Assembly (NCBI GenBank): GCA_945860515.1
Contig: CAMARI010000002.1
Span: 1-51,314, forward strand
DNA from: Polaromonas sp. YR568
GTDB lineage: Bacteria > Pseudomonadota > Gammaproteobacteria > Burkholderiales > Burkholderiaceae_C
Length of the DNA stretch: 51,314 nucleotides
Direction: 5' to 3'
Shown one piece after another: positions 567 through 46,912 of this stretch. The translations under genes were made by a program, and so were the position numbers. Numbering within the stretch: the stretch's first letter is position 1; every line of letters begins with the position of its first letter. The notes beneath the pieces were generated by a model. It was not told the DNA's origin and made no database searches. It saw nothing but the letters and a program-made list of their open reading frames with translations.

Positions 567-589
567 GTCTGGTTAATTGACGAGGAGGG

Positions 590-670
590 CCGCAGCGCAG
601 GGCCGCCCCGAGCAAGGCATGCCCCTTTGGGGGCAGCATCGTACGCGAAGCGACGAGCGTGGGAGCTCAC
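590..670 (-). repeat. GC-rich dispersed element, copy A (tatA-tatB gap)
   Basis: An 81-base GC-rich sequence fills the space between tatB and tatA. It aligns over its whole length with the element inside the alpha/beta hydrolase gene at 46229-46310; the first 29 bases differ at one position and the rest has a few substitutions and one gap. It contains a hairpin-forming C-run/G-run (GCCCC TTT GGGGGC) and a degenerate form of the ACACGAAGTG block. The end next to tatA overlaps the tatA stop codon (667-669). No coding role here. Confidence 0.75.
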
Positions 671-3401: not shown

Positions 3402-3410
3402 TGGCGTAAG

Positions 3411-3504
3411 CCCCCACTGTCGCCCACTTCGTGTGGCTTCCTGCCCCCCGAGGGGGCCGCTGCGCCTGCGGTCTGGCAAAGCCAGTCCCGCGGCCCCTGC
3501 TTGA
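3411..3504 (-). repeat. GC-rich dispersed element, copy C (hisA-hisF gap)
   Basis: About 94 bases of GC-rich sequence fill the hisA-hisF gap. Blocks shared with the copy inside gltB (22679-22782) are CCCACTTCGTGTG at one end and CGCGGCCCCTGCTTG at the other. Blocks shared with the hydrolase copy are CACTTCGTGT and CTGCCCCCCGAGGGGGC. The latter is a perfect hairpin former. Read on the minus strand it extends the hisF frame upstream with a [11 protein letters not shown]-type peptide that is very similar to the peptide encoded by the element in the hydrolase. Confidence 0.75.
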
Positions 3505-24225: not shown

Positions 24226-25075
24226 TTAATTGGGGTCAGATTCCAATTAATCCCCGCCGTATTGATTCTAAAAATAATTGGGGACAGATTAATTTCAAGA
24301 AATTCTTAAATTAAATCAGGCGGTTACAAGATCAATCATCCTTGGAAACCTTGTTTTGTGGGCGACCCGCCTTGCTTTTATTGACCCGCCGAATAGTCCT
24401 TTTTTGCAAATCTGCAACAAAATCGTCTTCTCCCAACGCCCAGCCAGCCAAAGTTGACCGCGTCAAAGCGGCCTGCTGGTCGGCACTGATGCCCGCCCGC
24501 ACCAAATCGGCGTAAGCGGCTTCGCGCCCAAACGGCGTATTGGCCAGACCCCAGTAAAGAGAGTGCGGACTGATCAATTTGTCTTGACGCACGCCGACAT
24601 ACAAGCCGTGACTGGACCAGGGGTAATCGGCAGCCTCTGTGACTAGGCCCGCGCGCACCGGGTTCAAGTCAATATAGGCCATGCAGGCCAGCAGGTAGCG
24701 GTCCGTCTGGATCAACGTTGAACGGTAGCGTCCCTCCCAGAGCGTGCCAGTACGGCCCTGCAAATCATTGAAATAGCGTACATAGCTGCGGCCGACGGCC
24801 TGCATCATTTGCGGCAATCCGGTGTCCGTCTGGGGCGTTGCCAAGAGGTGAAAGTGGTTACTCATCAGCACGTAGGCGTGAACATCCACTTCGAATTTTT
24901 TGGCGTGGACGTCAATCAGGCCAAGCAATGCCTGATAGTCGGCAGTGGTCGTGAAGATCGCCTGACGGTTATTGCCCCGCTGGATGATGTGGTGCGGGTA
25001 GCCAGGAAGCGTCAAGCGCGGCAGTCGGGCCATGGGTTTGGGTTTGGGCTTTAATTGGAATCTGACCCCGATTAT
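24226..25075 (-). mobile_element. RAYT element with inverted flanking motifs
   Basis: The transposase gene lies between two inverted copies of one motif. The left copy, TTAATTGGGGTCAGATTCC plus AATTAA (24226-24250), can itself fold (TTAATTGG/CCAATTAA, 9-base loop). The right copy is TTAATTGGAATCTGACCCC (25051-25069), the exact reverse complement over 19 bases, continuing with GATTA. A second, partial left copy AATTGGGGACAGATTAATTT is at 24276-24295. This layout matches REP-associated tyrosine transposases and their REP-like ends. Confidence 0.8.
24332..25033 (-). CDS. REP-associated tyrosine transposase (Y1/HUH family)
   Basis: RAYTs are single-strand-specific Y1 transposases related to IS200/IS605 TnpA and thought to spread REP sequences. 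The 233-residue protein has the HUH pair H60-F-H62 in MSNHFHLLATP, the N-terminal GYPHHIIQRGNNRQAIF block typical of RAYTs, and candidate nucleophile tyrosines in GRSYVRYFND (84, 87). The WEGRYRSTLI, AYIDLNPVRAGL and YPWSS blocks follow. It looks intact. It sits alone between gltB and a binding-protein gene, between inverted flanking motifs. Confidence 0.92.
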   Translation of the reverse strand: MARLPRLTLPGYPHHIIQRGNNRQAIFTTTADYQALLGLIDVHAKKFEVDVHAYVLMSNHFHLLATPQTDTGLPQMMQAVGRSYVRYFNDLQGRTGTLWEGRYRSTLIQTDRYLLACMAYIDLNPVRAGLVTEAADYPWSSHGLYVGVRQDKLISPHSLYWGLANTPFGREAAYADLVRAGISADQQAALTRSTLAGWALGEDDFVADLQKRTIRRVNKSKAGRPQNKVSKDD

Positions 25076-30908: not shown

Positions 30909-32837
30909 TCAGGGGCATGCACTGACACTGTTTTTAATGGTAACTGTCGCCGAGCCAGACGCACGAGTTGAATCCACCACGGTAATGGTGACATTCAAAT
31001 CAGGACCAGTGGGAGCCGTACCAGGAATACATCGATTACCTCCAGCTGGTGTAGCGAGCGTTACAGTTGTGCCTGATATGGACGCAATCAATTTGGAGAT
31101 GTCCGAGCTGAATACATTCGCACCCGCTGCGTCGTTTGCGGCACCGAATACCGTGAGACTTATAGGCGTATTGTCCAATTCAGATACCGTAAGCGGGGTG
31201 GGAGACAACCTTATTCCAGGAGTTGCAGCGTTGACTGTCAAGTTGTACGGAATCGACTGGTTATTGGCGTCCAAAACAGTAACAACGGTTTGACCCACTT
31301 GTATCAATGTGATTTCCAACTGATTACCGCTTACTGAAGCAGACGCAACAAGACGGTTTCCTACAGAAACCGTGAACGGCGCTGTACCGCCGGTAATCGT
31401 TGCTACCAGCCTGTCATTAATAATCCCAGTTGCACTGTTAGGCGTAATACCTAATGGCGCAGTTCCGATAGTAGCGTTGACGTTAACTACCGTTCCTGCA
31501 CTGTCGCGCACGGAAATGGTGGCGGAGCCAACAGCCACGCCAGTGATGGTGAGGTTGTTACCTTGTAAAGTGGTAGTGGCAATTCTTGCGTTATTGCTGG
31601 TTGATGTGTAGGGGCCTGTTCCACCACCGACGGAATACGTTGGCGCAGCGCCAATCGCTATCGTGACGGCGGACGGCGCCGTTGTGAATAAGGCCAGTGT
31701 GCCGGCCGCCGGAACCATCACAGCCACATTAACCACTGCGCCTCTACTGTCACGGATGACAATATTTGCGGTACCAGTTGTCAAGCCCGATATCGTGAGG
31801 TCACTACCGGTGAGTGAAACCGTCGAAACACTTGAATTGCTGGAGGTTGCTGTATACGGACCTGTTCCGCCGCCCACGCTATAACGAGGCACCGCGCCGA
31901 TCGCCACCGTGATGGCAGGCGGCGCCGTTGTGAACAGGGCCAGTGTGCCGGCCGCCGGAACTGTCACTGCCACGGTAACCACAGCGCCTTTACTGTCTCG
32001 GATCACAATATTTGCGGTACCAGTTGTCAAGCCGGATATCGTGAGGTCACTACCGGTGAGTGAAACCGTAGCAACACTTGTATTGCTGGAGGTCGCTGTG
32101 TAGGGGCCTGTTCCGCCGCCGACGCTGTAACTTGACGCCGCGCCGATCGCCACCGTGATGTTATTAGGCGCCGTTGTGAACAGGGCCAATGTGCCGGTCG
32201 CCGGAACCACCGTCACAGCGACGTTAACCACAGCACCATTACTGTCACGTAGAACAAGAGTGGCGTTGCCAGAAGCTACGCCGGATATCGTGAGGTCACT
32301 ACCGGTGAGTGAAACCGTAGCAACACTTGTATTGCTGGAGGTCGCTGTATACGGGCCTGTTCCGCCGCCCACTGCGTAGGAAGGTGCGCTAGCGAGCGCC
32401 ACAGTTACCGCTGCTGGGGCCGTTGTAAAGAGAGCTCGACCATCACTATCACTCACTCTCAAACTAATTTTTACTGATGCGCCTAGCGAATCGCGAACAG
32501 TAATTTCCGAATTACCTGAAGAAACCCCGCCTATAGTCAATCGTTGATCCTTGACACCCGAAATACCTACCGCTGCGTTATTACTAACCGCCGTGTAAGG
32601 TGCGACACCGCCACCAATATTGAAGTCTTGCGCAGCTCCAACCCCGAGAGTGAGGACATCAGGAGCAGAAGTAAACAATGGCGTGGTTACAGCCGGCGCA
32701 GAAGGTACAGATGCTGAACCTGATGAAGAGGTACCAGCTGAACCACCACCTCCGCCACAACCTACAAGTAAAACGACAAACAAAGCGCCGATCAGTTTCA
32801 AAATATTTTTCACGCTCAGGCCTTTAATATTGCTCAT
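30909..32837 (-). CDS. Lipoprotein with tandem Ig-like repeats, unknown function
   Basis: The 642-residue protein has a lipoprotein signal peptide with Cys27 in the lipobox LLVGC, followed by a Gly/Ser/Ala-rich linker (28-50). Seven beta-rich units of about 80-83 residues follow, starting near residues 54, 136, 219, 301, 383, 463 and 543. Units 2-5 are nearly identical: LFTTAP, then YSVGGGTGPYTATSSN, SLTGSDLTISG and VIRDS. The last unit has two Cys (603, 641) that could form a disulfide. The fold is presumably Ig/cadherin-like. An ATG at 32837 with AGGA upstream is preferred to an in-frame TTG two codons earlier. It lies 26 bases after pilQ, so it is probably transcribed with the pilus genes. 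A surface or pilus-related role is inference only. Confidence 0.85.
   Translation of the reverse strand: MSNIKGLSVKNILKLIGALFVVLLVGCGGGGGSAGTSSSGSASVPSAPAVTTPLFTSAPDVLTLGVGAAQDFNIGGGVAPYTAVSNNAAVGISGVKDQRLTIGGVSSGNSEITVRDSLGASVKISLRVSDSDGRALFTTAPAAVTVALASAPSYAVGGGTGPYTATSSNTSVATVSLTGSDLTISGVASGNATLVLRDSNGAVVNVAVTVVPATGTLALFTTAPNNITVAIGAASSYSVGGGTGPYTATSSNTSVATVSLTGSDLTISGLTTGTANIVIRDSKGAVVTVAVTVPAAGTLALFTTAPPAITVAIGAVPRYSVGGGTGPYTATSSNSSVSTVSLTGSDLTISGLTTGTANIVIRDSRGAVVNVAVMVPAAGTLALFTTAPSAVTIAIGAAPTYSVGGGTGPYTSTSNNARIATTTLQGNNLTITGVAVGSATISVRDSAGTVVNVNATIGTAPLGITPNSATGIINDRLVATITGGTAPFTVSVGNRLVASASVSGNQLEITLIQVGQTVVTVLDANNQSIPYNLTVNAATPGIRLSPTPLTVSELDNTPISLTVFGAANDAAGANVFSSDISKLIASISGTTVTLATPAGGNRCIPGTAPTGPDLNVTITVVDSTRASGSATVTIKNSVSACP
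31452..32426 (-). repeat. Four near-identical tandem repeat units (about 246 bp each)
   Basis: Within the lipoprotein gene, units 2 to 5 repeat at 240-249 base spacing. Blocks such as GCCAGTGTGCCGGCCGCCGG and TCACTACCGGTGAGTGAAAC recur with few changes on the plus strand. The near-identity at DNA level points to recent duplication or gene conversion and predicts copy-number differences between strains. Confidence 0.85.
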
Positions 32838-45937: not shown

Positions 45938-46912
45938 ATGATCGAATTCAGCCGCCAGACTCTGCCCCACGGCATCACGCTGTCTTGCCGCAGTGCGGGC
46001 GCAAAAGGGCGGCCGGTACTGATGTTTTTGCATGGCTTTCCAGAAGCGGCTTTTGTTTGGGACGGCTTGCTGGCGCATTTTTCCCAGCCGGAGAACGGCG
46101 GCTACCGCTGCATTGCGCCCAATCTGCGCGGCTATGAACAATCCAGCGCCCCGAATGATGTGAGCGCCTACCAACCCAAGCATCTGGTGCAAGATATTGC
46201 GGCGTTGATAGCCCTTGAGGGCGGGCAGCCGCAGCGCTGGGCCGCCCCGAGCAAGGCTAGCCCCCTCGGGGGGCAGCGACTTACACGAAGTGAAGAGCGT
46301 GGGGGTCCACAGATTGATTGTCTTGTGGCCCACGACTGGGGCGGTGCCGTGGCTTGGAACCTGGCCGCCAGCCAGCCGCAGCTGATCAAAAAGCTGGCCA
46401 TCATCAACTCGCCTCACCCCGGTACGTTTTTGCGTGAGTTGCAGCAGTCACCCAGCCAGCAGGCGGCCAGCGCTTACATGAATTTTTTGATTCGGCCGGA
46501 TGCTGAAAAGCTGCTGGCCGAGGACGATTACAAAAGACTATGGCGATTTTTTAGCGACATCGGTACGCCGCCCAACGCAGGCGGGTGGCTGACTGATGCT
46601 GTCAAGTCGCAGTACCGCGACGTCTGGGAGCACGGCTTGACAGGGCCGCTCAATTTTTACCGCGCATCGCCACTGCGGCCCGGGCCGGATGTCGCGAATT
46701 TGGTGATTCCGCGCGAGCTGCTTTACGTGAACCTGCGCACGCTGGTGGTGTGGGGCATGGGCGACATGGCCCTGCTGCCGGGGCTGCTGGTTGGCCTGGC
46801 CGACTTTGTGCCGCGCATGGAACTGGAGCGTGTCGATGGCGCGAGCCACTGGATCATTCACGAACAACCCATGCTGGTAACGCAGCATCTGGCGCGGTTT
46901 TTGTCTGGTTGA
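45938..46912 (+). CDS. Alpha/beta hydrolase (epoxide-hydrolase-like) with an inserted repeat peptide
   Basis: The 324-residue protein is an alpha/beta-hydrolase of the epoxide hydrolase/haloalkane dehalogenase type. It has the oxyanion HGFPEAAFVWD block (about 33-43), RGYEQSS, the nucleophile elbow VAHDWGGAVAW with Asp as nucleophile, and a C-terminal catalytic His in GASHWIIHEQP. Between IALEGGQ and IDCLVAHDWGG, residues 98-125 (containing APSKASPLGGQRLTRSEERGG) are not part of the fold. They are encoded by an 84-base in-frame copy of a GC-rich repeat. The insert sits right before the strand that leads to the nucleophile, so activity may be affected or the loop may be tolerated. Substrate unknown. 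Confidence 0.88.
   Translation: MIEFSRQTLPHGITLSCRSAGAKGRPVLMFLHGFPEAAFVWDGLLAHFSQPENGGYRCIAPNLRGYEQSSAPNDVSAYQPKHLVQDIAALIALEGGQPQRWAAPSKASPLGGQRLTRSEERGGPQIDCLVAHDWGGAVAWNLAASQPQLIKKLAIINSPHPGTFLRELQQSPSQQAASAYMNFLIRPDAEKLLAEDDYKRLWRFFSDIGTPPNAGGWLTDAVKSQYRDVWEHGLTGPLNFYRASPLRPGPDVANLVIPRELLYVNLRTLVVWGMGDMALLPGLLVGLADFVPRMELERVDGASHWIIHEQPMLVTQHLARFLSG
46229..46312 (+). repeat. GC-rich dispersed element, copy B (inside the hydrolase, in frame)
   Basis: The inserted block is 84 bases, exactly 28 codons. It is bounded by CAG at 46226-46228 and ends with CAG at 46310-46312, which could be a three-base target repeat. It aligns along its full length with copy A in the tat operon. The centre AGCCCCCTCGGGGGGC is a near-perfect hairpin, followed by ACACGAAGTG. 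Removing it joins IALEGGQ directly to IDCLVAHDWGG, the expected hydrolase sequence. Confidence 0.8.

Follow-up and report, generated by a model that had tools for sequence, protein, structure and literature searches.

The window, by which we mean the whole stretch of 51,314 nt that was analysed, is one contig of a 2.94-Mb MAG of 279 contigs. It carries a hydrolase gene that holds a short repetitive element in frame, other copies of the same element, and a transposase gene. These features are listed below with the scores of R1, a covariance model of the element.

45938..46912, + strand: epoxide-hydrolase-like alpha/beta hydrolase of 324 aa, host of the insert (Pfam, structure search, AlphaFold model)
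46229..46312, + strand: in-frame element copy of 28 codons, residues 98-125 of the hydrolase (empty orthologs, covariance model match)
580..667, + strand: element copy between tat genes, non-coding (82% identity over query 3-86; R1 72.7 bits)
3410..3491, - strand: element copy with a different type of 5′ half, flanked by two His_biosynth genes (R1 45.8 bits)
24332..25033, - strand: Y1/RAYT-type transposase gene, single copy (sole PF01797 match in the genome)

The hydrolase ORF matches Pfam Abhydrolase_1 (E 1.4e-23), and its closest solved structures are epoxide hydrolases (top 5nfq, E 3.8e-39). Its translation reads IALEGGQ, then PQRWAAPSKASPLGGQRLTRSEERGGPQ, then IDCLVAHDWGG, and both this translation and an alignment with orthologs agree with the initial annotation, which had described an exact 28-codon block inserted in frame. 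The insert is 84 nt long and, because CAG is present at both of its edges (as had also been remarked), the bounds 46226-46309 are equally valid. R1 matches it at 46219-46306 with 86.1 bits, and the arms of its 5′ hairpin (P1) are of a GC type, AGCC[GCA]GC/GC[AA]GGCT. The same block had been reported between tatA and tatB (gene names as given there), and this copy is recovered with a local alignment score of 91, whereas none of 30 shuffled queries scored above 32 over the window. The genes on either side of the weaker third copy (3410-3491) match Pfam His_biosynth (hisA/hisF-like), and an open frame crosses this copy into the downstream gene; its translation confirms, in line with the initial annotation, that the copy shares its reading frame with an open extension upstream of hisF. 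Rfam gave no match at the gathering score anywhere in the window.

The block is far from unique in its own genome. A BLAST search with it located at least 40 places at E ≤ 10 (40 of 68 candidates scored), and R1 found 74 places at E ≤ 0.001. The model has 88 positions and was built from the tat copy and 25 copies selected by pattern from 43 BLAST stretches, with one long variant omitted and the structure set by hand. The element begins with P1, the arms of which are highly variable yet complementary while the loop, GGGCCGCCCC, is conserved; besides the GC type, there are AT-type arms (AATTTTCC/GGAAAATT). P1 is followed by the hairpin GCCCCC-TCG-GGGGGC, a small third hairpin (P3, CRC-GNA-GYG) and the 3′ end, AGCGTGGGGG[C/T]. 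Some copies have an alternative 5′ half (CAAGCAGGGGCCGCGG..CTGGCTTTGCCAG..) joined to the same 3′ half. A 21-nt extension (TTCTCGAAGAGCGGCGAAGCC-like) recurs in the third hairpin at L022:832-1944, L235:411-2543 and L213, the last being UvrA of the close species G078; it is absent from UvrA of the window's own genome. Tandem copies occur in G077:C20, at 30939-31027, 31029-31114 and 31116-31201.

The stems gave a covariation score of 0.266, compared with 0.140 after shuffling (reached by 0/500) and at most 0.116 when slid, although such scores are inflated by the kinship of the copies and the structure was derived from the same sequences. Further pair types in the stems did not rise above the shuffles (270/500). 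As drawn, P1 is paired in 66.5% of cells, a low value due to the GC-type copies, for which a different register is required. Pairing between the 5′ loop and the 3′ tail may be possible, although the bases concerned hardly vary. When six loci were searched against Rfam at E up to 5, isrD overlapped the L004 copy on the opposite strand (23.5 bits against 37, E 0.64), a sub-threshold match that was taken as chance.

R1 matches were found in 36 of the 37 genomes of the genus, own genome included, with per-genome copy numbers in this survey being lower bounds. Within the family, 127 of 150 genomes and 119 of 141 genera have them, and outside it they occur in one of 24 genomes of the order, where each other family was represented by one genome. 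Plasmids gave three partial matches (two in Variovorax, one in Paraburkholderia). The named organisms with close relatives of the hydrolase are mostly Polaromonas and other Comamonadaceae, some of them named isolates, and on this basis the genus of the window is taken to be Polaromonas-type.

The 74 copies in the own genome were classified with a hexamer coding score trained on the long ORFs of the window. By this score 26 are in frame inside genes and 42 have at least one non-coding flank, two lie between genes, three have flanks that differ in frame and one meets a stop in the frame that its flanks share; these final four seem to sit at the ends of genes and not to interrupt them. The HemN copy is in frame by Pfam and alignment, though the classifier had placed it between genes, giving a total of at least 27 in-frame copies out of 74. 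None of the 74 clearly breaks an intact frame, in a classification that frame-breaking copies in pseudogenes would escape, as decayed genes score as non-coding.

The 26 in-frame copies lie in 25 ORFs, of which all but one (L016) match Pfam; in some, such as the PrmC-like L025, the RsmB-like L004:2-997 and the PDH-E1-like L242, matches are confined to one side of the insert. Besides the window's hydrolase, the invaded genes include those for UvrA, RecQ, RecG, a UvrD-like protein, an AcrB-type protein (two copies), PurL, Fmt, FdhD, a PPDK_N enzyme, an AMP-binding enzyme, hydantoinase B, a Mur ligase, a biotin carboxylase, a class I tRNA synthetase, threonine synthase, a second alpha/beta hydrolase, and the PDH-E1-like and RsmB-like proteins. 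Both orientations of the element and several of its reading frames are used. Twenty loci of other species, picked for long open frames and hence examples, not a rate, added MoeA (L185), RecJ (L193) and a LysR-type regulator (L180), while several such ORFs gave no Pfam match (L177:1242-3128, L181, L193:2145-3341). A heavy-metal P-type ATPase of 805 aa (L176:2170-4584, - strand) holds two in-frame copies, one of them shortly upstream of the VGDGVNDAPAL motif.

Three other genes gave a view of one site across genomes. FdhD could be read in 28 of 30 loci, with a flank-to-flank distance of 33-153 residues in 24 and 8-11 residues in four; as the loci are the best matches to an insert-containing query, this is not a frequency. 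Most of the long FdhD inserts read as element-derived (L280 has no obvious element sequence), and further FdhD genomes align in two pieces around a missing insert. L283, L287, L284 and L289 appear to carry translated tandem units of the element (up to about four), i.e., a coding VNTR. For Fmt, 18 of 30 loci were readable; the site is occupied in four of them, by elements that differ in subtype, and vacant in the other 14. L299, unread by the pattern, aligns through the insert. In EamA-like transporters of two species (L249, L182), different subtypes occupy what seems to be the same position.

At the hydrolase site itself, 20 of the 30 loci from relatives cover the gene (L036-L055). The element is present in four and absent from 16 (15 by pattern, L052 by alignment), showing that the 28 residues are not a conserved part of the orthologs; where the block is missing, the helix is joined directly to the nucleophile strand. 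The comparison with orthologs, which the initial annotation had proposed as a check, was extended to the best 80 of 261 public orthologous loci. R1 matches eight of these (GC content of the matches 0.71-0.78), seven with the element at the hydrolase site and one (L099) with it upstream of the gene. A tree of the hydrolase gene (78 rows, insert excluded) shows the carriers scattered rather than together; L080, L098 and L140, in which the site is empty, were not included. The window forms a clade with L065 and L066, and the neighbouring L079 is empty (98/84). Carriers L067, L068 and L070 sit at an unresolved fork, carrier L078 is placed beside the empty L092 (99/92), and carrier L095 beside the empty L144 (100/92). 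The carriers differ in element subtype and partly in the frame through the element.

The preferred explanation, based on these sequence comparisons, is that the element would have inserted repeatedly at a tolerated loop of the hydrolase. The main rival is a single old insertion in a Polaromonas ancestor, followed by many losses and a replacement of the 5′ half. It accounts for the element ending in CGT GGG GG[T/C], in the same frame, in all hydrolase carriers, and for the non-carriers L133 and L135 keeping SDKR-like residues that recall its 3′ part. Such a history is harder to reconcile with the empty sites right beside carriers (L092 with L078, L144 with L095), with hydrolase junctions that differ by a few bases, and with two kinds of 5′ half (L067 and L095 versus the rest). 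Fmt behaves alike, with differing subtypes in L295, L297 and L298 and empty sites in L300-L302. We therefore regard a single insertion as a possible but rather unlikely origin of the hydrolase inserts. The count of tree labels covers only the contrast with five possible-footprint rows (two changes). The residues SDKR beside the site in L133 and L135 also occur in the 3′ part of the L078/L095 element, a possible footprint of loss.

An AlphaFold2 model of the insert-carrying hydrolase, built on 53 orthologs, has a mean pLDDT of 83.6 and a pTM of 0.86. Residues 99-119 fall below a pLDDT of 50 on a confident hydrolase core. This segment lies between helix 80-94 and strand 126-132, next to which is D133 of the HDWGG elbow, presumably the nucleophile by analogy with the family. 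The model predicts that the insert is a disordered loop on an intact fold. The initial annotation had placed the block beside the catalytic elbow, which is true of the linear sequence; in the model, the insert precedes the strand and D133 is at the strand's far end, so that little direct effect on catalysis is expected. Contact of a loop at the start of this strand with the active site is unlikely, and the modelled hydrolase very probably still works with its insert.

The fate of copies after insertion was followed in the close species G078, in which 40 stretches and L066 allowed 23 of the 41 distinct own copies to be mapped. Of these, 19 are shared, one (tat) is shortened and three are absent, a shared fraction that is biased upward, many stretches having been chosen for holding element copies. 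Between the two species, the host-gene flanks of 10 shared in-frame copies have a pN of 0.017 and a pS of 0.168 (PurL and the second hydrolase, poorly aligned, were omitted), indicating that the host genes are held by selection while carrying the insert. Within the 10 inserts, pS is 0.048 (12/252 sites) and pN is 0.028 (19/669), the latter above that of the flanks. Synonymous divergence in these inserts is about three times lower than in the codons around them or in codons matched for GC content; flank windows with a GC content of at least 0.65 have a pS of 0.145-0.163. Values of pS at or below 0.05 are not rare, occurring in 134 of 1108 overlapping 30-codon flank windows. Total divergence is 38/918 for coding copies (flank 5.5%) and 41/674 for other copies (flank 6.5%).

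Inserted copies thus seem to change more slowly than synonymous sites, and their low synonymous divergence is a poor fit to purely inert selfish DNA. Selection on structure, gene conversion or low mutability could explain the slow change. Length differences within in-frame copies are multiples of three (UvrA 21, AcrB 18, PurL 54 nt), but as an argument this is weak because the non-coding tat copy, an internally shortened remnant in G078, shows such a difference too (51 nt). A more far-reaching reading, which we put forward only tentatively and consider improbable, is that in-gene copies are both translated and conserved as nucleotide sequences, and so would serve as structured nucleic acid (hairpins of RNA or DNA) and protein linker in one; the loops of FdhD, the hydrolase, Fmt and an EamA-like transporter would then be standing landing pads, refilled by different lineages, in FdhD even with translated tandem arrays.

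REP/REPIN sequences, which occur with RAYT, are dispersed palindromes. The element resembles them in being palindromic and dispersed, and a RAYT-type gene is kept in its genus, with a PF01797 match in 60 of 61 genus genomes, mostly one in each. These points would suit an element of the REP/REPIN kind that is moved by the genome's own RAYT (Y1 transposase). The RAYT genes of the genus are, however, flanked by another repeat. In the window, AATTGGGGTCAGATTCCAATT-like repeats that differ from the element lie on both sides of the gene (at about 24232 and about 25053) and the locus (L034) gave no element match; from its sequence, this gene with its flanking repeats appears to be a separate REP-like system. 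Among 30 Y1 loci (25 RAYT-type and five strong IS200-type), the element matches only L148 (IS200-type, E 4.9e-11) and L150 (E 0.25), whereas 25 of the 30, the window's included, carry GGGGTCAGA-type repeats (by pattern, with at most two mismatches). Y1 genes are also present in G021 and G003, two genomes in which the element is matched once at most. Mobilisation by RAYT is accordingly very unlikely, and the gene was rejected as the likely source since the flanking repeat in Y1 loci is a different one. In the part of a REP/REPIN paper that was available (PMC3733652), six host names were not found.

We infer that the element is mobile at the present day. The search for a target motif among 109 distinct copies revealed no more than a slight bias past the 3′ end, towards A at +2 (56/109) and T at +5 (56/109). 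At one clean empty site (L007, G078), the insertion is bordered by ATGA on either side; the empty sites of L026 and L027 have diverged too far for their junctions to be placed exactly. By eye, no terminal inverted repeat was evident in the alignment of copies. The idea that the P1 arms derive from the host, as guides pairing with the target, was unsupported, AT-type arms being common to many copies; for GC-type arms a host-derived origin could still apply.

That the insert is instead a lineage-specific loop, expanded or selected within the hydrolase and only secondarily like other sites, is almost certainly wrong: loop length is slightly variable in non-carriers (28-37 residues in the pattern-bounded segment) and the three nearest genomes have a conserved insert, but the DNA of the block belongs to a family of 74 genomic places, and the site is filled in orthologs by element subtypes that differ, some of them read in another frame.

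The block is best regarded, with a probability of about 0.84, as a dispersed, non-autonomous, structured mobile repeat, the in-frame copies of which survive as translated surface loops, that of the hydrolase included. This reading draws on observed features of the element, namely its dispersal, its absence from relatives, its frame, the purifying selection on its hosts and the occupation of the same site in several lineages. Copies would land in many genomic places, and frame-breaking insertions would presumably be purged by selection. Open-frame copies of multiple-of-three length would survive where the protein tolerates a surface loop, and would probably go on being translated as long as the lineage lasts. 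For the hydrolase, this would mean 28 disordered residues leading from helix 80-94 to strand 126-132 and D133. The initial annotation had likened the block to Rickettsia palindromic elements (RPEs), as a selfish repeat surviving in frame within proteins, and this proposal is strengthened by the empty orthologs, the 74 copies, the 27 or more in frame, and the predicted disorder of the insert.

The element very probably already has a name. Betaproteobacterial Repeat Elements (BREs) are described as dispersed repeats of 75-91 bp and 63.7-78.9% GC, sometimes in tandem with few or no bases between them, in hosts including Polaromonas, Delftia, Acidovorax and Rhodoferax, and some copies lie wholly within coding sequences (Hot et al. 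2011, PMC3110155, in the part available). The length of our element (88-position model), its GC content (0.71-0.78) and its tandem copies fall within this published description. For Polaromonas JS666, 29 BREs were reported (score >50, >70% identity; PMC3110155); in the JS666 record behind L074 the block gave at least 43 matches (with 40 of 73 candidates scored), and 31 of these exceed 50 bits; copy number is thus similar at 31 versus 29, the two counts coming from different programs and scores. By size, GC content, hosts and copy number, rather than by alignment, the element is most likely BRE. The available part of that description (PMC3110155) is without frame analysis, a list of invaded enzymes, a covarying structure or empty sites.

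In behaviour, the element would appear to work like RPEs, an analogy of mechanism rather than a claim of sequence kinship. According to the parts available of two sources (PMC10969869, PMC4316617), RPEs too are short palindromic repeats found between genes and in frame in unrelated genes, where the ORF stays open and a peptide is added. The element differs in occurring in another bacterial class, in free-living hosts, and in being about 88 nt long versus about 100-150 nt; it also uses both orientations and several frames, and translated tandem arrays seem to occur (FdhD). It further resembles MITEs in being small, non-autonomous, dispersed and able to fuse with ORFs, but inverted ends are not evident and ATGA at both ends was seen in one clean insertion only. 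It is not unusual for MITEs within genes to form in-frame fusions, and MITEs in Polaromonas JS666 are cited to Mattes et al. 2008 (both in the part available of PMC10969869). No description of BREs inserted in frame in conserved proteins came up in the literature consulted, an earlier one in Mattes et al. 2008 being possible. In-frame persistence in conserved enzymes, re-use of sites and translated arrays are apparently new for BRE.

RPEs are the textbook example of selfish repeats that give rise to protein sequence. A comparable process appears here in free-living bacteria, some of them cultured, across a whole family and in enzymes that can be expressed and assayed. Because there are natural orthologs with and without the insert, the cost or gain of function from a selfish insertion is directly testable, and the occupied sites offer a natural record of the loops in core enzymes that can accommodate some 30 additional residues. 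For Rickettsia, the contribution of RPEs to novel or modified proteins remains unexplored according to the available part of a 2024 review (PMC10969869). Should the in-gene copies have the dual role, with landing-pad loops, that was raised above, the repeat would keep supplying proteins throughout the Comamonadaceae with new loops.
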